64,000 nucleotides of DNA from assembly GCA_018660685.1 (NCBI GenBank), contig JABJJW010000012.1, positions 186,001-250,000 on the forward strand, read 5' to 3'. The DNA comes from Flavobacteriales bacterium. GTDB lineage: Bacteria > Bacteroidota > Bacteroidia > Flavobacteriales_G > Salibacteraceae. Made by a program: the position numbers and the translations under genes. This document shows, piece after piece, positions 45,405 to 59,824 of the stretch. The notes beneath the pieces were generated by a model that saw nothing but the letters and a program-made list of their open reading frames with translations, was not told the origin of the DNA and made no database searches. Within the stretch, counting starts at the first letter, position 1. Each line of letters begins with the position of its first letter.

Positions 45405-46019
45405 ATGACCACTTCGACTATCACTGAATATCCAGTCATGGAACATTTCGCCACAATTCAAGGTGAGGGGTTTTATGCTGGAACGCCTGCCTATTTTATA
45501 CGCCTAGGCGGCTGCGACGTAGGCTGTCATTGGTGCGATGTGAAGGATAGCTGGCCGATTGACACCCATCCAAAAATCGAGTCCAAAGATCTGGTTGATG
45601 CGGTTTTGGAAAGTGGATTGAACATCGTTGTCATCACCGGCGGTGAGCCTGCAATGCACGATTTGACTGCGCTGATATCTTCATTAAGGAGCGCAGGTTT
45701 AAAATGCCATATTGAAACATCAGGGGCGCACACGCTTACCGGAAATTTTGATTGGATTACGTTTTCTCCGAAGAAATTCAAAGCGCCACTTGACTCGGTT
45801 ATCAGTTTGGCAAACGAATTGAAGGTCATCGTATTCAATCGTTCAGATTTTCAATTTGCGGATGAGTACAAATCGAAAATGGAAGTTGGTGCGCAATTGT
45901 TCCTTCAGCCAGAATGGGAAAAACGTGATGAGATGACCCCATCAATTATCGAATACATAAAAGAGCATCCTGAATGGAGGATCTCACTTCAGACACATAA
46001 ATACATGAAGATACCATGA
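45405..46019 (+). CDS. queE: 7-carboxy-7-deazaguanine synthase
   Basis: 204 residues. A radical-SAM CX3CX2C motif (GGCDVGCHWCDVKDSW) is in the short QueE form, with VMEHFATIQGEGFYAGTPAY at the head, VVITGGEPAMHDLTALI, and the ETSG segment HIETSGAHT. It makes 7-carboxy-7-deazaguanine from 6-carboxytetrahydropterin for queuosine tRNA modification. The stop overlaps the start of the PorE-like gene (ATGA), so the two are translationally coupled, although their functions seem unrelated. queC/queD are not in the window. Confidence 0.92.
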   Translation: MTTSTITEYPVMEHFATIQGEGFYAGTPAYFIRLGGCDVGCHWCDVKDSWPIDTHPKIESKDLVDAVLESGLNIVVITGGEPAMHDLTALISSLRSAGLKCHIETSGAHTLTGNFDWITFSPKKFKAPLDSVISLANELKVIVFNRSDFQFADEYKSKMEVGAQLFLQPEWEKRDEMTPSIIEYIKEHPEWRISLQTHKYMKIP

Positions 46020-47950
46020 GAGCATTGATCGTTACGCTATTAAGTCTCGTGTCGTTTGTGGGTTTTAGCCAAGATTATCGAACGGAAGACAAGCGGGCCA
46101 TTAAGTATTACCAAGAAGCGATGAACGCGCTCCAATATGGCAACTATGAGATTGCAGAAGTGAGCCTTGAAAAGGCCCTCGCTCGGGACGACAACTTCCT
46201 AGATGCAAAATTTGACATTGCCCAACTCTACCTCTTCACTGAGCGACAGGCGAAAGCCAAAAGCCATTTGGTGTCGATTTTTAAAACCGATCCTGCATTT
46301 GAGCCGGTTGTGGGTTTTACTCTTGGTACAATGGAAATCGGAAAAGGAAAGTATGAACTAGCTGAATGGTATTTCCGGAAAACACTTGATATTGAAATTG
46401 ACAATCCAAAGCTCGAAAAGGCCATCAGGCTAGGCTTGGCAAATTGTCTATTTGCAAAAGAAGCGGTGGCTAATCCAGTAGAATTCAATCCACAGAATTT
46501 AGGCGGAAACGTAAACAGCAAAACGGACGAGTATTTTCCGGCGCTTACCGCTGATGAAAGCCGGTTATTGTTTACACGCTTACTGTCTTCACGTGAAAGT
46601 CCTGATGGGAAAGATGAAGACTTCTTTTTCTGCAACAAATCAGGTGACGAATGGGGAAAAGCATACAATCCCGGTCCGCCGATTAATACTCCCTTTAAGG
46701 AAGGCGCTCCAACTCTATCACCCGATGGCAAATACATCATATTTACGGCCTGTGAGCTTTATGGAACATACAGCCCAGGGAAAAAAGGATTTGGCAGCTG
46801 CGACCTATTCATCTCAGTGAGAAACGGAGAGCGATGGTCAAAACCCATGAACATGGGCAGGACGATTAATTCACCTCACTGGGAAACTCAACCTTCATTC
46901 GCCAGCGACGGGAAAACATTGTACTTCATCCGAGGTAAACGGACGAAAAAAGGGGTAACCAATTCAGACATTTACATGAGTGAATTGGTCAATGGCAGAT
47001 GGTCCAAAGCGATGCCGCTACCCGACAACATTAATTCTGGAGAGTCAGAAGAATCAGTATTTATTCACCCCGATAATCAGACGCTTTATTTTTCCTCCAG
47101 AGGACATGTCGGAATGGGAGATATGGACATTTACCTCAGCAGAAGAAAGGAAGATGGCACATGGGGCGATCCGATAAACTTGGGATATCCAATTAACACT
47201 CAAGGTCAAGAAAACAGTTTTCATGTTTCCGCAAGTGGAAACTATGGACTCATCGCCAGCGATCGTGAAGGAGGTTTCGGTGGCCTAGACTTATACTCTT
47301 TCGAACTTCCCGAACACGTTAGACCAAATCGAGTTACATACCTAAAAGGGAAGATCACAGATGCGAAGACTGGACAAACACTCGAGGCGAAATTTGAGCT
47401 AATTGATCTAGCCTCTGGCGACACAGTGGTGGAGTCTTATTCCGATAAGAAAGATGGTTCGTACTTAGTCGTTCTTCCAGCTAGCAAACGATACGCCCTC
47501 ATTGCGGACAAGGATGGCTATTTATATCACAGCGAAAATTTCGAACTCGACTTAAAAGAGAACAAAACACATTATACCAAGAACATCAAAATGCAACCGA
47601 TCGAGGCTGGCAGTAAAGTCGTGCTTAAAAATGTGTTCTTCGACACAGACAAATTCGATTTAAAACCTGAGTCGCTGACAGAATTGAACAAACTCAGCCG
47701 CTTGATGCAGTCAAATGCATCGATTAAAATTGAGGTCTCTGGTCATACTGATAATCAAGGAAACGCAACTGCCAATCAGGTTTTATCTGAGAATAGAGCA
47801 AAGGCCGTTGTTGAATTCTTGATCAGAAACGGAATTGAAGAAAGTCGATTGGCCTTTGCAGGATACGGTCAAAACCAACCAATCGCCACCAACGATACCG
47901 ACGAAGGACGTCAACTCAATCGGCGTACGGAGTTCATGGTTATCGAGTGA
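46016..47950 (+). CDS. PorE-like envelope protein: TPR, beta-propeller, carboxypeptidase-regulatory-like fold, OmpA
   Basis: 644 residues with signal peptide MRALIVTLLSLVSFVGFS (cut before QDYRTED). TPRs (about 30-150: AIKYYQEAMNALQYGNYEIA, YELAEWYFRKTLDIEID), a WD40/PD40-like propeller (about 160-430: YFPALTADESRLLFTRLLSS, APTLSPDGKYIIFTAC, SDIYMSEL), a CRD-like domain (about 440-530) and an OmpA domain (about 535-644: KNVFFDTDKFDLKPESLTEL, KIEVSGHTDNQGN, LSENRAKAVVEFLIRNGI). This is the PorE architecture, a T9SS accessory protein that binds peptidoglycan. Many paralogues share the layout, so the role in T9SS is inferred. Confidence 0.82.
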   Translation: MRALIVTLLSLVSFVGFSQDYRTEDKRAIKYYQEAMNALQYGNYEIAEVSLEKALARDDNFLDAKFDIAQLYLFTERQAKAKSHLVSIFKTDPAFEPVVGFTLGTMEIGKGKYELAEWYFRKTLDIEIDNPKLEKAIRLGLANCLFAKEAVANPVEFNPQNLGGNVNSKTDEYFPALTADESRLLFTRLLSSRESPDGKDEDFFFCNKSGDEWGKAYNPGPPINTPFKEGAPTLSPDGKYIIFTACELYGTYSPGKKGFGSCDLFISVRNGERWSKPMNMGRTINSPHWETQPSFASDGKTLYFIRGKRTKKGVTNSDIYMSELVNGRWSKAMPLPDNINSGESEESVFIHPDNQTLYFSSRGHVGMGDMDIYLSRRKEDGTWGDPINLGYPINTQGQENSFHVSASGNYGLIASDREGGFGGLDLYSFELPEHVRPNRVTYLKGKITDAKTGQTLEAKFELIDLASGDTVVESYSDKKDGSYLVVLPASKRYALIADKDGYLYHSENFELDLKENKTHYTKNIKMQPIEAGSKVVLKNVFFDTDKFDLKPESLTELNKLSRLMQSNASIKIEVSGHTDNQGNATANQVLSENRAKAVVEFLIRNGIEESRLAFAGYGQNQPIATNDTDEGRQLNRRTEFMVIE

Positions 47951-47954
47951 TACC

Positions 47955-49412
47955 TCACTTTACCAATTTGATTCTTTTGTATGCATTTGATCTTGAATCA
48001 TACAGCTCGAGGATTACCGGAGATTGAAACTTTGGGATTCGGGTCACGCCCTCTGAAAACACCTCTCTCCGCCATACTTCTTGACCCAATAAATTATACA
48101 AGGTCATGGAGCCGCTGAACTTTCTGGAATGGGCAATAACCCACTCGTCAAGTTCATTTTTAACCGTCAAATTATTGAACTTGTTGGTTTGGGTTCCAGC
48201 CGCTTGATTTGATGCGTTCTGATCGTCTTCAATCTCAGAATATCCTAGGCTGGTTGTCTTTTTGACCGAGGTGGTATGAACCAAAATAAAATCTTCTTGT
48301 CCTGCCCCGAATGATTCTGTTGTACCGAACATAATGTATGACGAATCAGCAAGAAAAGCACTGCTGGTCAAATGCTCATCTCTCTCTAAACCAAAAGAAG
48401 TACCGTTAATGAAATTACCACCTGATGAGTAATTGTATAAATGAAAATCAACCGGCTTACCAAAGGTTCTTGTCGACATCCCAATATATATGGTCCCATC
48501 AGAATGCTCAAAAGACTCAACCCCATAATCATCTTGATTAGTAACGGTTGTTGAATGCCCCATGCTTACTTGCCAAATGATTGAATCAGCATTGTTGACT
48601 TTAGCCAAATAGGCATCGTAGTCGCCCTCTGAATCCAATGAGTTGGTCGACCCTGTAAATAGCCAAGTTGAATCACTCATGATCATCATATGAGATGCGA
48701 TTTCAGAATTAGTCCATCCAAAATTCGCTTGGCTAAGAATCTCACCACTGGCATCAATTTTCATGTGAACTATATTTCTTTCACTCGAGTCTGCAGGAAT
48801 TCCATCTCCAAGAATGTGGAGCTCGGAATCCTTTATGATGTGATCAGCAAGATGGAACGAATCCATTTGAAGTTCAAAATCATCGATTAAATTCAACTCA
48901 AGGTCAAAGCGAGAATGCTTATAGAGGTCATCCTCAATTTGTCTTTCGATAAAAAGAGAAATCTCATTGGAATCTAAACTGAGAGAAATGGCGTCATCAT
49001 TTCCAAAATTGTTTAACCGCTTCGTGCGAATTAGTTCTAAATTCTCATCTACGACATATAGCTGAACGTCATAGTCAGAGGCCGAAAAGCCGTCGTATAC
49101 AACTGCAGCCAGCACAAATAGATTAGACATAGAATCGTATTCAACGCACCTCAACGTTTCGATTCCATGATTTCCAATTGGCACAAACTCCATAGGTTCA
49201 AATGCAGTATCAAGCTTGATGATGTAAATATCAGACTGACCTGCACCTACACCTCCAGTGCTTCCGAATAAGTACAGATTTGATTCTGTAGGTATTGCCC
49301 GAACTCCTATTTCTGTCCCTGGGGTTCCGTATGCAATATGCTGAACCGTGTCCTGCGCCAACGCCGCAGATCCGAGGACAGTACAAAGTGCTATGAATAA
49401 CGCCTTTACCAT
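47955..49412 (-). CDS. Secreted protein with C-terminal T9SS-like domain, third gene of the DUF5723 operon
   Basis: 485 residues with signal peptide MVKALFIALCTVLGSAALAQ. The mature part shows repeated strand patterns (LYLFGSTGGVGAGQSDIYII, DSTWLFTGSTNSLDSEGDYD, SSYIMFGTTESFGAGQEDFI), typical of bacterial propeller-like delta-60 repeats. The final 80 residues (MTLYNLLGQEVWRREVFSEG, VTRIPKFQSPVILELYDSRS) resemble a type A sorting domain without the usual P-N-P. It overlaps the DUF5723 gene by 7 nt. A surface protein; function unknown. Confidence 0.7.
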   Translation of the reverse strand: MVKALFIALCTVLGSAALAQDTVQHIAYGTPGTEIGVRAIPTESNLYLFGSTGGVGAGQSDIYIIKLDTAFEPMEFVPIGNHGIETLRCVEYDSMSNLFVLAAVVYDGFSASDYDVQLYVVDENLELIRTKRLNNFGNDDAISLSLDSNEISLFIERQIEDDLYKHSRFDLELNLIDDFELQMDSFHLADHIIKDSELHILGDGIPADSSERNIVHMKIDASGEILSQANFGWTNSEIASHMMIMSDSTWLFTGSTNSLDSEGDYDAYLAKVNNADSIIWQVSMGHSTTVTNQDDYGVESFEHSDGTIYIGMSTRTFGKPVDFHLYNYSSGGNFINGTSFGLERDEHLTSSAFLADSSYIMFGTTESFGAGQEDFILVHTTSVKKTTSLGYSEIEDDQNASNQAAGTQTNKFNNLTVKNELDEWVIAHSRKFSGSMTLYNLLGQEVWRREVFSEGVTRIPKFQSPVILELYDSRSNAYKRIKLVK

Positions 49413-50638
49413 AGATACTGAATTGAAAGTCTTATTCCAGCTCCTGCCCTGGTCTTCCCAAAGAGAATAGCATCAACATTTTGAACTTGGATTGCGGCAT
49501 TGATTCTCTCCCCAATATAACCCGCATTCAAGCCGACTTGGAGACCGGCATATCCACTATAACCCACACTTGCTCCACTTTCAACCGACTCATTGAATTG
49601 AAAACGTGAGGCTACCCAAGCATATGGCAAGTACCCGCTATTCCATCGAGCTGCGCCTCCAAATTCCATCTCAATTCCACGCGCTTTTATCTGAGATATT
49701 TTGGCCTGCATGCCGCCGGGAAGCAAGCGGGTAATCGTCCCATAACGGGTCGCCTTTTCAAATTCCATTTGCAATGAATCCGCAAGATCAAAATCCTGAT
49801 TCTCAATCTGTGTAATATCACCAACATTGATTCCAGAAAAACTAATTTTTTCATCGAGATCAATCTGAATTGATTGAGGGCTCCATTGCACCAACGAGAG
49901 GTTCTGCACCATCAAATCCAACCGCCATTTATCATCTTCCGCGCCCATGAATTGGGTGTAAACTACATCAACCGCTGCTCCTCCTCCGTTTGTCTTTCCG
50001 AAGCCAATATTAGCCGTATCACTGAACTGTCCGCCGGCGTCAACATCAGCGTAGACTGTATCTCCGAGCGCTGAAGTGAAAAGTTGTGTTGATCGAGTGT
50101 GAAGCTCAAACAGGGTTTCGGCGTTGATCACGGAAAGACGAAGTCCGATCGATACGTCTTCAGATGGAGAATAAAGCCATCCTATGCCGAATTTCTGAAA
50201 CCGAGTTAGATTGAGCTCGGCATTAGCAATTTGGGCTGTGTCGCCTGCAAAACCCTTGTTACCAAAAAGGCCCAAGCTCATTAAGTCTTTTGGAATCTTT
50301 CCATGGGCATGTGCTTCGTCTGAAACCCAAACCGAAAGTTGGTGATTCTGATTTTTGAGTGAAAGCCCGGCGCTTAGACCATAATTGTAATCTCCTCCTA
50401 TTCTTGTGAACGAATTGAGACCATCAAGTTGCTCGACTCGAACTTCACTGGAGAGCACGTCCTTGGTCATGAGTTCATTGATGAACGAATTATGAAATCC
50501 ACTGGACACAAAGCCGCCGTTTCCTGAAATCTGGGCATATGATTGATGACGAGTATTGGTCCAATTTTGCTCACTCAACTGCTGCCCAACCGAAAGAGTG
50601 GAATGGAGAATGAATGATATGACAAGAATATGCTTCAC
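49406..50638 (-). CDS. DUF5723 family outer-membrane barrel
   Basis: 410 residues with a signal peptide (MKHILVISFILHSTLSVG, cut before QQLSEQ). The mature part is a long beta barrel: SYAQISGNGGFVSSGFHNS, FTRIGGDYNYGLSAGLSLKN, FGIGWLYSPSEDVSIGLRLS, AKISQIKARGIEMEFGGAAR, GYAGLQVGLNAGYIGERINA, ending AGAGIRLSIQYLW with a terminal aromatic. This is the DUF5723/PorV-like long-chain transporter fold group of Bacteroidota. It overlaps the lipoprotein gene by 4 nt and the next gene by 7 nt. Confidence 0.75.
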   Translation of the reverse strand: MKHILVISFILHSTLSVGQQLSEQNWTNTRHQSYAQISGNGGFVSSGFHNSFINELMTKDVLSSEVRVEQLDGLNSFTRIGGDYNYGLSAGLSLKNQNHQLSVWVSDEAHAHGKIPKDLMSLGLFGNKGFAGDTAQIANAELNLTRFQKFGIGWLYSPSEDVSIGLRLSVINAETLFELHTRSTQLFTSALGDTVYADVDAGGQFSDTANIGFGKTNGGGAAVDVVYTQFMGAEDDKWRLDLMVQNLSLVQWSPQSIQIDLDEKISFSGINVGDITQIENQDFDLADSLQMEFEKATRYGTITRLLPGGMQAKISQIKARGIEMEFGGAARWNSGYLPYAWVASRFQFNESVESGASVGYSGYAGLQVGLNAGYIGERINAAIQVQNVDAILFGKTRAGAGIRLSIQYLW

Positions 50639-52227
50639 CGCGTATTCAGATTTACATCTGCTATCAAGCGAAACTCCATCGTCCCGTTGTTGTAGATATT
50701 AATCACCTCCTTGTTGTGTGTGCTCAGGTTTCCTTTGAATACGATTTGTTTTGCTTCATTGAACCGATCCATTCTTTCTTGATCAATCAGCAATTCGATG
50801 ACAGATTCAGACGCGTCGATTTCGGATCCAATTCCTATGGGAACACCAGATGCGATGACAGCCGGTGTTTCAAACAAACTATCGAGAGCAGTGGATTCCT
50901 CATCGAGAAGAATAAACTGGATCGTTCCTTCGATGGGAAAGCCATTTTCCAAATACAATATCAGTCTGCCATCATTGAGTGGTTTGAATTCGATCTGATC
51001 AGTAGAATCTGAAATATTGAATTCGAAGGTGTCCGAAAGCACTAATCCTTTAACCCCGACCTTGAGCGGAACATCTACTTCAAGAGTGGCACTCAAATCA
51101 TGTCCGTAGCGGACAAAATCATTCCCTAACGAAACATTACCAAAAGGGTTGATCTCAAGATCTAGATCAAAAATGAAAGCGTCTGGTTTCAATTCCAGCA
51201 ATTCATCCAAGTTAGAATTTGTCTCATTGAATTCAAATTCTTTGAGAATGTGTTTGACATCTTCCACTGTCGGATGAAGATCAATGGCTCGGCTGAATTG
51301 AAGTTTTGATCCAATTACAGAATGACTCAAATCAACCGATTGATTTTTCGTGGAGTTGAACGAGCCAATTCGATCCAGGCTCAACTGAAGGTCGGCTCCA
51401 ACCCCATTGTCAATTTTCATCTTGACGCTAAACTCCGTAAGGTCGATCATGTCGAAGTCGATGTTTGGCAAGAGGTCGATTGCTGTTGAGTCCGAAAACA
51501 ATGTTTGCTGTTGACCAAAATATCCCCTGGTGTATTCTGGGATAATCTTTTTGAATGTGAGATCAATGCCGAATTTATCACCAGCGCTGAAGGTGTGAGG
51601 AGCAGAAGCAGCCGGATCAATCATGATCTCCACATTGGTAATAATGGTGTTAGTTTTATCTCCATTGAGCCCGGTGAAGTTGATGTCGTATCCATCAAGA
51701 TCGTACTGGGTTTCGAACGTTGAATTAGCGTCGATCATTTCCTCGACTTTAAATGTATCTCCATCTAAGGTCGCCGACAATATGGAATAACGAAAGAGGA
51801 TGCGTTCATCAATAGTATTCTGCAATTCTACCGAGATAAGAGATTCGCGAATTTCTGCGAATGTCAATCCGATTTCCTTGAGTTTATACCTAATACGATT
51901 GGTGTCTCTATAAAAAACTACTCCCGGTGGAAAAGTGATATTCCCAATCGGAATTACGAATTCATTTGTAATCGTTGTGTCCGGTATTCCGATTAACGTG
52001 TCTAATCCAATTCGGAACAGTGTGTCTGAATATTGGAGATGATAGAGGCCCGCGTTATCTGCAACTAGGTGCTTTGATTTAATCAAGCTTGAAAGATCGA
52101 TTTTACCTTGCGCCAGAGGAGCAATCACATCCACATCCCAGCTTGCCAACTTCAAATCTTTTCGGCACGATACAATGCTAAAAGAAGCTATAAGTGATAA
52201 CAGAAATAGAAGGGTCTTCGTTTTCAT
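50635..52227 (-). CDS. Large lipoprotein, first gene of the DUF5723 operon
   Basis: 530 residues. MKTKTLLFLLSLIASFSIVS then Cys21 forms a clean lipobox. The mature protein has many beta strands in repeating 80-110-residue units (SWDVDVIAPLAQGKIDLSSL, PIGNITFPPGVVFYRDTNR, IDLTEFSVKMKIDNGVGADL, LSATLEVDVPLKVGVKGLVL), suggesting stacked immunoglobulin-like or LEA-type domains. No family recognised. Overlap with the DUF5723 barrel gene (ATGA, 4 nt) implies coupled translation and a shared complex. Confidence 0.7.
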   Translation of the reverse strand: MKTKTLLFLLSLIASFSIVSCRKDLKLASWDVDVIAPLAQGKIDLSSLIKSKHLVADNAGLYHLQYSDTLFRIGLDTLIGIPDTTITNEFVIPIGNITFPPGVVFYRDTNRIRYKLKEIGLTFAEIRESLISVELQNTIDERILFRYSILSATLDGDTFKVEEMIDANSTFETQYDLDGYDINFTGLNGDKTNTIITNVEIMIDPAASAPHTFSAGDKFGIDLTFKKIIPEYTRGYFGQQQTLFSDSTAIDLLPNIDFDMIDLTEFSVKMKIDNGVGADLQLSLDRIGSFNSTKNQSVDLSHSVIGSKLQFSRAIDLHPTVEDVKHILKEFEFNETNSNLDELLELKPDAFIFDLDLEINPFGNVSLGNDFVRYGHDLSATLEVDVPLKVGVKGLVLSDTFEFNISDSTDQIEFKPLNDGRLILYLENGFPIEGTIQFILLDEESTALDSLFETPAVIASGVPIGIGSEIDASESVIELLIDQERMDRFNEAKQIVFKGNLSTHNKEVINIYNNGTMEFRLIADVNLNTR

Positions 52228-52333: not shown

Positions 52334-52774
52334 ATGAAAGGAGGACTTCCATCACCTGGAATTAAATTTTTTGCATCTTGGATAATCAGTTCCTTGTGCA
52401 TGTTCATGCTGTCATATATATGGCACGGTGTCGTGCTCAATGACTTAATCAAGCTGACTTATCCTACCGATATCTTCCTAACCATTTCCGCGCTTGTCTA
52501 TCTTGGAATAGGGTTTATTATAACTGTGGTAACCTATGTCATGAAGCGTCTCAAAGACTCTTTCAAATATGGCATGGCAGCAGGGGCACTTATCGGAATC
52601 TTCATATACGCCGTGGCTTTTGTGATGGGGCTGAGCTTCAATGACGTGGTCGATATCAAGATCATTGCCTTCGATTTGGGTTGGCAAGTGTTAGAACATG
52701 GTTTTGGAGGTCTGATGTGCGGCTGGGTCTATCGAACGCTCCATATTCGGGAGAAAAGAGTTCAGCTCGCTTAG
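52334..52774 (+). CDS. Four-helix inner-membrane protein of unknown function
   Basis: 146 residues with four hydrophobic segments (FFASWIISSLCMFMLSYIW, IFLTISALVYLGIGFIITVV, YGMAAGALIGIFIYAVAFVM, FGGLMCGWVYRTL). Glycine-rich turns and a conserved-looking HGVVLND and LEHGFGG. It resembles DUF1761/DoxX-size membrane proteins but is not firmly placed. Converges with the ABC exporter gene by a 4-nt stop overlap (TTAG). Confidence 0.65.
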   Translation: MKGGLPSPGIKFFASWIISSLCMFMLSYIWHGVVLNDLIKLTYPTDIFLTISALVYLGIGFIITVVTYVMKRLKDSFKYGMAAGALIGIFIYAVAFVMGLSFNDVVDIKIIAFDLGWQVLEHGFGGLMCGWVYRTLHIREKRVQLA

Positions 52775-55318: not shown

Positions 55319-55336
55319 AAAATATTGAACCCGTAC

Positions 55337-55363
55337 CCTGACCTTGTGTCAGGATTTTTTTTT
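55337..55363 (+). terminator. Terminator after the NUMOD4 gene
   Basis: CCTGAC / GTCAGG stem, 5-nt loop, then A and nine T residues. Confidence 0.8.
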
Positions 55364-55396
55364 CCGCGTTCTCTTTGTAACCTTTGTCCAAAGACC

Positions 55397-58300
55397 ATGA
55401 TTATGAAACTAACCCATACCATCTTATACATATCAATTTTAAGCGTCTTTGCTCCTGCGTATTCTCAGAGTATTGATACCGCCAACACTCAGGTTTGGGT
55501 AGACCTCATGCAGGACCCAAATGCGAATTTCTTCGAAATTCAAAGAGCTTCTAACGTATACTGGGAAGGACGTGAGCACGAACGAGGAGATGGATGGAAG
55601 GTGTTTAAGCGATATGAGAATTACTGGCGAGATCGAATAAATCCAGATGGATCATTCCCATCTGCTGAAAGCACCAAAGATGCCTATGAGCAATGGAGGA
55701 TTGCCTACAATCAGAATCAAAGCGGAATGGAATCAGACGGTGGCGACTGGGTCAATCTTGGGCCATTTGATAAGCCAGACAATGGAACTGGACAGCCCAA
55801 TGGAAATGGACGTTTGAACACGATATGTTTTCATCCCACGGACTCAAATACAATGTGGGTTGGAGCTCCAGCTGGTGGTCTATGGAAAACAACAAACGGT
55901 GGTGTATCGTGGAGTTCTAATACGGATAACATGCCAACGCTCGGCGTTTCAAGTATTCTCATAGATCCAACCAATACGAGCGTGATGTACATGGGAACTG
56001 GAGACAGAGATGCATGGGATGCACCTGGGCTCGGTGTCTATAAGTCTACCGACGGTGGTGCTTCATGGGGCGTGTCGAATACCGGAATGGGCAATAGAAT
56101 AGTAGGCGCGATGATCATGCACCCGTCTAACTCATCATACATATTGGCTGCGACGAGCGGCGGAGTCTACCGAACCACCAATGGAGGTAGCAATTGGACC
56201 TTGGAGACAAGTTCTTACTACTTTAAGGATATTCAATTCAAACCTGGTGATCCGAATACGGTATACGCCACAGAAACCTCAAGTGGGGCAAATTTCTGGA
56301 AGAGCACAGACGGTGGAAATAGCTGGTCTGTAATTACATCAGGCCTGCCTACTAACGGTCAGCGATTTGCTATCGGCGTTTCTCCTGACAATGCAAACAC
56401 GGTTTACATTCTGTGCTCCATTAGCTCTGCTTATGGCGGACTATTTAAAAGCACGAATAGCGGAACATCATTCAGCACTCAATCTACCTCACCCAACATA
56501 CTGAGTTATAATGAAAGTCCTCCTACGACAGGTGGGGGTGGACAAGGTTGGTATGATCTCGCTATAGCAGTAGATCCAACAGACGAAAGCGTTGTCTATG
56601 TCGGCGGGGTTAACGTGTTTAAATCAATAAATAATGGGTCGACCTGGGATTGTGTAGCTCACTGGGTTGGGAGTTCAACAGCGGCATCAGTTCATGCGGA
56701 TCAACACTTTCTCAAGTACTCTCCTGTTACCAACAATTTATTTGGTTGCAATGATGGTGGCCTTTACTACACCTCAAATGAAGGCCAAACTTGGCCAGAG
56801 ATAAGTGATAGCCTCGCAATATCTCAGCTCTATCGAATCGGTGTCAGTCAACAGACGAATGAATTGGTTATAAATGGATATCAAGACAATGGAACAGCGC
56901 TCTACGATGACACGATTTTTAGAACTGAGCGTGGAGGAGATGGAATGGAATGCATTATTGACTACACCGATGATAATGTCATGTACATGTCGATTTACTA
57001 TGGAAATATCGCACGATCATTTAATAATGGGTATTCTCTTGGGTCATTCGCTGGACAAAACATAAATAGCATTACAGAATCAGGTGCTTGGATCACACCT
57101 TTCATTTTGGACAATGAAGATCCGAACACGATGTTCATTGGGTATAAAAACGTTTGGAGAACATCAAATGCCACAGCATCTTCTCCAACATTCGAAGCAA
57201 TAAGCTCTAATCTCGCAGGAAGCAACGGCTATAACATCCGAGATCTGAAACAGAGCAAAGTCAACATGAACCGACTCTGGATGATTCGCTCAGACAATAG
57301 ACTTTTTAGGAGCAATAATGCGCTAGCGGGAACCGTAACTTGGACTGACCTCTCTCCAAATTTGCCAGGTTCAGGAACTGTTCAGGACATCGAAACCCAC
57401 CCAACGTCCAATTCAACGATTTGGCTCCTTAGAAACAGCACAGTTTATATGTCGGTAAACTCCGGAATCACATGGATCAGTGCAAACGGCACACTGCCCA
57501 ACGTCTATAAATCATCGTTGCTCGCTGACCCATACTCAGAAGACGGGATCTATGTTGCCACAGATGCTGGTGTGTACTACATCGACGATAACCTCAGTAA
57601 TTGGATCGCGTTTGACGATGGACTTCCAGTCAATGTTGAAATTACAGAGCTCGAGCTGTACCATGAACAAGGCAATTGGGAAGGCGGAAGAATTCGTGCT
57701 GCAACGTATGGTCGAGGTCTCTGGGAAAGCGATCGATATGACCCGGGCTCTAACCCACCGCTTCCATTTTTCAGTTTGAGTATTGATACGACGGATATAT
57801 GTAGTTTCGACACGATTTCGATTTTAAACAATACGGCATATGGAATGGATTCCGTTCTATGGGAGTTCACTCCGTCCAGCGGAATCACATTCGTAAATGG
57901 AACGGATAGTAATTCGCTAAATCCACAGTTCGTTGTTTCTGAACTCGGGTCATACGACATTCTTCTAAAAGTTTACAATTCAAACGGATCAGACTCACTT
58001 TTGGTCACCGATGCCATTTCAATGTCCGGTGGAATTATTCCACAATGGACCGACGATTTTGAGTCGAATGTTGGCTGCGGGACCGCTGGATGTGTTACCG
58101 ACTGTGATGTTCTTGAATGGACCAACGTTACCAACGGAAATGGGGATGATATAGACTGGAGAGCAGATGCCGGCGGCACCCCTACGAGCAGCACTGGACC
58201 AGCAGTGGACTATGATCCAGGCACGAGCACAGGAATCTATCTCTATCTAGAATCATCTTCATGCGTGAGCCAAGAAGCAATCCTTGAGAGCCCGTGTTTT

Positions 58301-59824
58301 CAATTAACGAATTGTACAGCTCCTAAAGTCTCATTCGGTTATCATAGGTATGGCTACGCACCATGGATGGAAAGTTTGGCTGTCGATGTGCTATCAAATG
58401 GCTCATGGACTAACCTCTGGACACAGACAGGTACACAAAGCTCGTCGGACACTGATTGGAAAAGTCAGGTGGTAAATTTGAGTAGCTATCTCAATCAAAA
58501 TGTCAAGGTTCGATTCAGAGGGTTAAGTGGGTCTGGCTGGCAGGCAGATCAAGCTATAGACGGTATTGAGTTAATCGCCAGTCCACTTGCAGATTTCGAA
58601 GCGAGTGATTCCACGCCTTGCCTGAATACGACTATCACACTGTCAGACAGTTCAAGTCAAAACCCTACCTCTTGGTCTTGGACGATTACACCTTCTACAT
58701 ATCAGTACTTAGGAGGATCGAGTTCAAGCTCTCAGCATCCCCAAATAATGTTTACTCAACCCGGATCTTATAGCATCACTCTGCAAGCATCGAATGCCAA
58801 TGGTGGTGATTTTGAGGTAAAATCAAATTACATCACGGTCATCGATCCAGTCATAGACATCGAATCAAATAGCGATTCCAACAGGTTTTGCATTGATGAC
58901 ACGGTTATAATAACTGCTACAATTGGTCACGCGGTTTACAATTTCTATTGGAATGCAGCGCTGGCTCAAACGGGATCATCCAATCAATACTCGACCACTG
59001 CTTGGGCCGATTCGGACTATGTATATGTTTCCATCATGGATACAAATGGATGCCTCGACACCAGTGAAACACTTTACTTATACAGCAAACCAACCGCGGC
59101 GGGAGTGGTCGTTAGTAGCGATTCAGACAACGTGATTTGTGAAGGCGATACCGTGACAATGACGGTGAATGGATACCAGCTCACCTCCTACTCTTTTTAC
59201 CAATCTGGAACCCCAGTGCAAAGCGGTTCGGGTAATTCTTGGACCACTTCAGGATTAGCTGATGAAGACGAGATTTGGGCAGAACTGAACAATATCCATG
59301 AATGTCCCGGCTTGTCCGATACGTTGATTATTACCGTCAATCCCATTCCACCAACTCCAGCCATACAGCTGGTGCTAGACAGTTTGGGAGCCACTATTCC
59401 TGGTCAATTATACGAGTGGTCATTTAATGATAGTTCCACCATCTCGGGTGATTCATTGTATGCCAAGCACGGCGATGGGTCATACACGGTCAGAATATTC
59501 GTTGACGGCTGCTGGAGTCAGGTAAGTGCACCATTCGTGATACTAGGCGTCGAAGGATTGGACGATTTGAAAATCAAGGTCTACCCTTCACCTACTTCCG
59601 ACATTTTGAATATTAAATTGAGTCAATCAATACCGAATGAAGATGCGGTCGTCATGTTCTTCAATATGGCCGGTCAAATTGTTCTTACAGAAAATATATC
59701 GGGTCGATCTGGAGTTTCGAATTTCGAGCTTGATCTCAGCATCTTGCCTTCTGGCACCTATACAATGATCCTCCAAACGGGTGATCGAAACATTGCTGTG
59801 CCAATTATCAAAGAAAAAAGATGA
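55397..59824 (+). CDS. Large T9SS cargo: BNR/sortilin-like propeller, MAM-like and PKD domains
   Basis: About 1475 residues. ATG 55397 or 55403 gives the signal peptide MKLTHTILYISILSVFAPAY (cut after YSQ); the frame to 55325 overlaps the terminator. Residues about 150-800 carry repeated sortilin/BNR blades (GLWKTTNGGVSWSS, GVYKSTDGGASWGV, GVYRTTNGGSNWTL, FWKSTDGGNSWSVI). A MAM-like domain follows (about 890-1080, WTDDFESNVG..RFRGLSGSGWQADQAIDGIE), then PKD (WSWTITPSTYQYLG) and Ig-like repeats. The type A sorting domain ends it (IKVYPSPTSDILNIKLSQS, LPSGTYTMILQTGDRNIAVP). Secreted; glycan-binding or glycosidase activity is possible but unproven. Confidence 0.85.
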   Translation: MIMKLTHTILYISILSVFAPAYSQSIDTANTQVWVDLMQDPNANFFEIQRASNVYWEGREHERGDGWKVFKRYENYWRDRINPDGSFPSAESTKDAYEQWRIAYNQNQSGMESDGGDWVNLGPFDKPDNGTGQPNGNGRLNTICFHPTDSNTMWVGAPAGGLWKTTNGGVSWSSNTDNMPTLGVSSILIDPTNTSVMYMGTGDRDAWDAPGLGVYKSTDGGASWGVSNTGMGNRIVGAMIMHPSNSSYILAATSGGVYRTTNGGSNWTLETSSYYFKDIQFKPGDPNTVYATETSSGANFWKSTDGGNSWSVITSGLPTNGQRFAIGVSPDNANTVYILCSISSAYGGLFKSTNSGTSFSTQSTSPNILSYNESPPTTGGGGQGWYDLAIAVDPTDESVVYVGGVNVFKSINNGSTWDCVAHWVGSSTAASVHADQHFLKYSPVTNNLFGCNDGGLYYTSNEGQTWPEISDSLAISQLYRIGVSQQTNELVINGYQDNGTALYDDTIFRTERGGDGMECIIDYTDDNVMYMSIYYGNIARSFNNGYSLGSFAGQNINSITESGAWITPFILDNEDPNTMFIGYKNVWRTSNATASSPTFEAISSNLAGSNGYNIRDLKQSKVNMNRLWMIRSDNRLFRSNNALAGTVTWTDLSPNLPGSGTVQDIETHPTSNSTIWLLRNSTVYMSVNSGITWISANGTLPNVYKSSLLADPYSEDGIYVATDAGVYYIDDNLSNWIAFDDGLPVNVEITELELYHEQGNWEGGRIRAATYGRGLWESDRYDPGSNPPLPFFSLSIDTTDICSFDTISILNNTAYGMDSVLWEFTPSSGITFVNGTDSNSLNPQFVVSELGSYDILLKVYNSNGSDSLLVTDAISMSGGIIPQWTDDFESNVGCGTAGCVTDCDVLEWTNVTNGNGDDIDWRADAGGTPTSSTGPAVDYDPGTSTGIYLYLESSSCVSQEAILESPCFQLTNCTAPKVSFGYHRYGYAPWMESLAVDVLSNGSWTNLWTQTGTQSSSDTDWKSQVVNLSSYLNQNVKVRFRGLSGSGWQADQAIDGIELIASPLADFEASDSTPCLNTTITLSDSSSQNPTSWSWTITPSTYQYLGGSSSSSQHPQIMFTQPGSYSITLQASNANGGDFEVKSNYITVIDPVIDIESNSDSNRFCIDDTVIITATIGHAVYNFYWNAALAQTGSSNQYSTTAWADSDYVYVSIMDTNGCLDTSETLYLYSKPTAAGVVVSSDSDNVICEGDTVTMTVNGYQLTSYSFYQSGTPVQSGSGNSWTTSGLADEDEIWAELNNIHECPGLSDTLIITVNPIPPTPAIQLVLDSLGATIPGQLYEWSFNDSSTISGDSLYAKHGDGSYTVRIFVDGCWSQVSAPFVILGVEGLDDLKIKVYPSPTSDILNIKLSQSIPNEDAVVMFFNMAGQIVLTENISGRSGVSNFELDLSILPSGTYTMILQTGDRNIAVPIIKEKR

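Follow-up and report, generated by a model that had tools for sequence, protein, structure and literature searches.

Three overlapping genes on the minus strand of a Flavobacteriales genome encode a lipoprotein (A), a predicted outer-membrane barrel (B), and a putatively exported protein (C). The question arises which of these products belong together and what they do at the cell envelope. The window, meaning the whole stretch of 64,000 nucleotides that was analyzed, shows the following features at this locus.

Architecture of the locus

50635..52227, minus strand: gene A, 530 aa, with the lipobox ...SFSIVSC21 and stacked β domains
49406..50638, minus strand: gene B, 410 aa, GTG start, predicted FadL-fold outer-membrane barrel with signal peptide and terminal aromatic residue
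47955..49412, minus strand: gene C, 485 aa, with signal peptide, β-propeller–type repeats, and, judged at family level, a C-terminal domain like that of T9SS type A cargo
50635..50638, minus strand: overlap of A and B, 4 nt, GTGA
49406..49412, minus strand: overlap of B and C, 7 nt, ATGGTAA
52228..52333, no strand: divergent intergenic region upstream of A, 106 nt, presumed operon promoter
46016..47950, plus strand: convergent neighbor, TPR–PD40 propeller–OmpA protein, PorE/CHU_0125-like, below both curated cut-offs

The open reading frames and both junctions were confirmed on the minus strand, which bears out the initial annotation in describing three genes with overlaps of 4 and 7 nt as one operon. 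The A/B junction reads ...CGGTGAAG..., with the letters GTGA shared by both genes, and the B/C junction reads ...CTATGGTAAAG..., with ATGGTAA shared. The convergent TPR–PD40–OmpA gene ends 4 nt from the stop of C. Promoter and terminator scans at the locus yielded scores no better than those of shuffles. Divergent from A lies a gene for a small multi-pass membrane protein (52334-52774), which is conserved in 26 loci and has no family match above the curated cut-off. In addition, the window encodes a T9SS protein of 1499 aa (55325-59824) that comprises a sortilin-like propeller, MAM, PKD, and Ig-like domains and a clear Por_Secre_tail.

Conservation of the A–B pair

Gene maps of more than 100 loci yielded 106 distinct A genes for which the next gene downstream can be seen. 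B is the next gene on the same strand in 98 of them, an arrangement far beyond chance; in 71 of these 98 pairs the two genes overlap, and in 40 the overlap is exactly 4 nt. The distance matrices of the A and B trees correlate with a Mantel r of 0.80 (n = 97), which includes shared species history; none of 999 permutations reached this value, the permutation maximum being 0.21. Independent support for co-inheritance comes from the paralogous pair of the genus, A2–B2, which groups with the same relatives in the A tree and in the B tree. These genetic grounds make it likely that A and B form a physical complex.

The window's genome contains three pairs, namely the A–B pair of the window, A2–B2 (G000:C17, locus L065), and A3–B3 (G000:C3, locus L150). 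The close relatives are uncultured Flavobacteriales; of 60 relatives examined, 56 have A and 52 have B. The pair spans the Bacteroidota and is ancient in the phylum. Within a phylum sample of 296 genomes, A occurs in 93 and DUF5723, the Pfam family to which B is related, in 179. One sampled genome (locus L131) carries a DUF4621 gene (E 6.5e-102) upstream, and the next gene encodes DUF5723. Short A-like lipoproteins of ~180 aa are encoded directly before DUF5723 barrels in a Flavobacteriaceae-like family, the name being an interpretive reading of the sample and not a search result. DUF5723 is also found without A, as several stand-alone barrels in loci L160-L170, one of which is fused to TSP3–OmpA.

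SprA is present in 93 of 93 A-positive and 177 of 179 DUF5723-positive genomes, compared with 229 of 296 overall. The association is not strong evidence, phylogeny being a confounder: a single family (f36) supplies much of the SprA-negative set. Bacteroides ihuae possesses DUF5723 and lacks SprA.

In line with the initial annotation, which had stated no known role for the three products, no described role was found in the open literature searched. Neither a description of the A–B pairing nor a paper on the function of DUF5723, DUF4621, or 4h3w was found there.

Gene B: a predicted FadL-type barrel

The AF2 model of B is a β-barrel with a pLDDT of 86.3. Its structural matches include TodX (Z 19.4) and FadL (Z 18.9), both over ~310 residues with an identity of 7-10%, as well as the Flavobacterium johnsoniae BAM barrel entry 9n2d (Z 17.6), PorV (6h3i_F, Z 17.1), and the BAM barrels of B. 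theta (Z 16.3) and P. gingivalis (Z 16.1). By its predicted structure, B has a FadL/PorV/BamG-type fold and belongs to the FadL superfamily. A sequence-profile search of the PDB with B gave chance barrel matches only.

The DUF5723 label (PF18990) that B had first been given applies to its family and not to the protein itself: of 43 class-level homologues that occupy the corresponding place in the gene order, 36 hit PF18990, whereas window B shows no match to it at E ≤ 1. Followed through these intermediates, the sequence of window B is that of a divergent relative of DUF5723. Recorded with this relation is an hhalign comparison of A2 with a canonical member (E 4.6e-12). Some DUF5723 barrels carry additional C-terminal regions. 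The one at L164:5794-7971 extends into TSP3 repeats and an OmpA peptidoglycan-binding domain, and B3 of the window's genome (L150:6908-8719) is a canonical DUF5723 protein whose TSP3 repeats are cut by the contig end. Tails of the TSP3 and OmpA peptidoglycan-binding kinds imply that the C terminus of these barrels is periplasmic.

Proteins of the FadL fold carry hydrophobic molecules or hold other proteins, and are not protein translocators (PMC12611786, PMC9143113). B could be a channel for a hydrophobic substrate, A being a lipoprotein that binds and hands over this substrate and C an unrelated surface decoration. The match to FadL and TodX covers the whole barrel, and it is with these fatty-acid and hydrocarbon channels that B reaches its top Z scores. 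Moreover, the wide DUF5723 consensus retains an NPA motif in its N-terminal region, at the place of the hatch motif of FadL, and Fjoh_4941 of F. johnsoniae, another FadL homologue, adjoins a lipoprotein gene (PMC12045153). Window B, however, is devoid of the NPA motif; FadL and the other model channels work without a lipoprotein partner, and A, which reaches ~1060 aa elsewhere, is large for a substrate-binding protein. A channel function is hence improbable. The structural matches 9n2d and PorV, for their part, belong to protein-holding machines (PMC12611786, PMC9143113). PorV, the T9SS shuttle, shares the barrel fold with B; in contrast to PorV, B is paired with a lipoprotein, is present in several copies per genome, and finds no sequence-profile match.

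Gene A: a lipoprotein related to 4h3w

The lipobox cysteine of A is residue 21; it follows a signal peptide and is invariant in 42 homologues. The AF2 model of A is all-β with a mean pLDDT of 86.8. Together with the barrel model of B, this substantiates the earlier description of a lipoprotein with β domains next to a barrel. The model of A matches 4h3w with a Z score of 17.3, aligning 287 of the 313 residues of 4h3w. A is thereby divided into a 4h3w/DUF4621-like core and a jelly-roll–like insert at residues ~79-234 (best Z 8.2). The entry 4h3w is BDI_1231 of Parabacteroides distasonis, a solved structure of unexplained function that belongs to the family DUF4621 (PF15414). The C-terminal ~200 aa of A are conserved phylum-wide. 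Across lineages, the length ranges from ~180 aa in the short lipoproteins to ~1060 aa, with the C-terminal part common to all.

Direct Pfam and NCBIfam matches to A, B, and C were of no use. Window A has no Pfam match at E ≤ 1 and hence none to PF15414, for which one of the 42 homologues gives a weak match (E 0.036). A wide A profile matches 4h3w with E 2.3e-15, one of its 13 rows being the DUF4621 protein of L131; the class-level profile provides the independent figure of E 0.018. By fold and by remote sequence match, window A is a remote relative of DUF4621 and 4h3w. As a wide marker, DUF4621 matches just one of 295 class genomes, so that wide A homologues need an alignment profile to be found.

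At least two acidic residues among the six after the cysteine are present in 12 of the 42 homologues, and a lysine or arginine at position +2 in 31. Among the readable SusD proteins of the same genus, too, only about half would pass the test for the signal; these controls do not separate, and the export signal is therefore uninformative on the membrane face of A. One A homologue matches JHBP (TULIP) with E 1.5e-4. No TULIP structure is among the listed fold matches of A, which are filled by the jelly-roll domain.

Gene C: a frequent but optional partner

Homologues of C carry β-propeller repeats of the DUF5122/delta-60/SBBP kinds. A T9SS type A tail (Por_Secre_tail, PF18962/TIGR04183) is found in 17 of 24 positional homologues, whereas in window C the corresponding stretch (YNLLGQEV...KRIKLVK) can be aligned and stays below threshold. 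The T9SS-like tail of the initial annotation is hence a property of C's relatives, not one detected in window C itself. SprA is present in the window's genome.

The three genes had been expected to recur in relatives as an ordered triple. This is so for A–B, and for C in part: among 73 A–B pairs of middle length, C directly follows B in 25 and follows kdsA in 7 more, amounting to 32 of 73 in several families. The remaining 41 pairs lack C or have kdsA, flippase, or glycosyltransferase-like genes in its place. C is also missing from most distant A–B loci and from A2–B2 and A3–B3 of the window's genome, which means that the core function of the pair must be something other than holding C. A–B is the constant unit and C a frequent but optional partner.

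It may be asked whether C is a bystander that shares the transcript by drift or by growth-related expression, a view compatible with a role of A–B in substrate transport or in outer-membrane biogenesis (see below). The 41 pairs without C in its place speak for it. Against it stand the 25 direct and 7 near-direct A–B–C arrangements, which extend across families and often include gene overlaps. On this evidence, C is unlikely to be a mere passenger.

In the initial annotation, the three genes were read as a module for secretion or surface display in which the barrel acts as conduit or anchor. Barrel, lipoprotein, and exported protein are indeed co-encoded. The FadL fold, however, is too narrow and is plugged for the passage of proteins, the relatives of C carry signals for the T9SS, of which SprA is present, and the A–B pair also occurs without C. 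A conduit role is thus not supported and is very improbable.

Neighboring genes and a possible role in outer-membrane biogenesis

A PorE-like TPR–PD40–OmpA gene lies convergently downstream of A–B(–C) in 30 of 96 loci, or 31 when one same-strand case is included. The window's copy (46016-47950) was rejected as PorE itself, since it scores 278.6 bits against the curated cut-off of 600 bits for NF052230; a better PorE candidate of the genome, with 460 bits, is located at G000:C4:132787-134676. The protein encoded at 46016-47950 is a candidate peptidoglycan tether, a role that is doubtful at present.

Directly after B, kdsA, the gene for KDO-8-phosphate synthase, is located in 11 loci of several families (L063, L066, L073, L074, L079, L083, L086, L132, L207, L209, and L212), mostly in the order A–B–kdsA–C. 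The LPS-export permease genes lptF/lptG adjoin A or A–B in L058, L141, L144, and L146, mostly in convergent orientation. Both sets of neighbors are suggestive of envelope biogenesis, though they may reflect inherited gene order.

A corresponding explanation sees A–B as an accessory of outer-membrane biogenesis in which the lipoprotein, held by the barrel, would aid the folding or assembly of other outer-membrane proteins, lipoproteins, or LPS, with C as an incidental gene or a client. Its model is BamG–BamH of the Bacteroidota BAM complex, wherein the FadL-family barrel BamG holds the lipoprotein BamH (PMC12611786, PMC12578637). Like A–B, BamG–BamH combines such a barrel, which B resembles, with a large β-rich outer-membrane lipoprotein, is distributed phylum-wide, and has paralogous copies. 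The very wide distribution of the A–B pair and the link of kdsA to the synthesis of LPS KDO fit this explanation. Nevertheless, PDB profile searches with A and B found no BAM chain at E 10, so that the likeness resides in the fold of B, and no bam gene was recognized in the loci examined. LptFG is mostly convergent and hence not co-transcribed. The A and B genes adjoin and overlap, whereas bamG (Fjoh_1412) and bamH (Fjoh_0823) lie apart in F. johnsoniae. Furthermore, full-length A is absent from most of the sampled Flavobacteriaceae-like genomes, in which just a short form was observed. A role in biogenesis is therefore rather improbable.

Proposed model of a probable A–B complex

The reading we prefer, with a probability of roughly 0.4 for the model as a whole, is that A and B form a complex in the outer membrane and that this complex retains or handles C at the envelope. 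Herein, B would serve as the membrane platform in the form of a FadL-superfamily barrel, and A would be the lipid-anchored β-domain subunit docking on it. C may be a third subunit or a client gained in this lineage and exported through the type IX secretion system; that A–B holds it at the envelope is a tentative part of the model. The convergent PorE-like OmpA protein might tie the assembly to peptidoglycan. By analogy, the mode of working could be that of the PorE–PorP–cargo anchor or of the BamG–BamH pair, built from different families. The model is favored because its ingredients match, that is, a barrel, a lipoprotein, a T9SS-type propeller, and an OmpA-type neighbor. The pairing and co-inheritance of A and B, the folds, the lipobox, and the T9SS tails in relatives of C were computed directly. 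From the recurrence of the A–B pair across the phylum, we infer that it is probably an unrecognized outer-membrane complex.

For PorP/SprF, it was shown that these barrels hold T9SS cargo, while PorE provides the tether to peptidoglycan (PMC9143113). The PorE–PorP–PG1035 and SprF–SprB systems resemble the A–B–C locus in that the genes for a FadL-family barrel, for a protein exported by the T9SS, and for a lipoprotein with TPR, propeller, and OmpA parts are close neighbors. In contrast to them, barrel B is of the DUF5723 family and not of PorP/SprF, lipoprotein A is an extra and constant partner, and the PorE-like gene at A–B loci is convergent and not co-transcribed. In addition, the clients of PorP have type B tails, whereas the relatives of C have type A tails.

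DUF5723 and DUF4621, the respective homologues of B and A, stand side by side in L131 and are kept by Pfam as separate unknown families. The chances are about even that the DUF4621-like lipoproteins work together with the DUF5723 barrels in a single outer-membrane machine, present across the phylum and so far unnoticed. It would constitute a FadL-barrel module beside BamG–BamH and PorV/PorP, with several copies per genome and lineage-specific T9SS clients. Two unknown Pfam families and the orphan structure 4h3w are joined in one gene pair, which gives each a testable partner. Tractable strains for the complex are offered by the Flavobacteriaceae-like family with its short form of A and by P. 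distasonis with its solved DUF4621 protein.

Variant loci

Two loci contain tandem duplications. At L098:4607-10494, two A–B pairs follow each other in a row; at L094:5636-9983, two A genes do so, with no recognizable B. In L137, L139, and L145, a long A of ~690 aa is followed by a gene of ~397 aa other than B, which in L137 is phosphoglycerate kinase by sequence.
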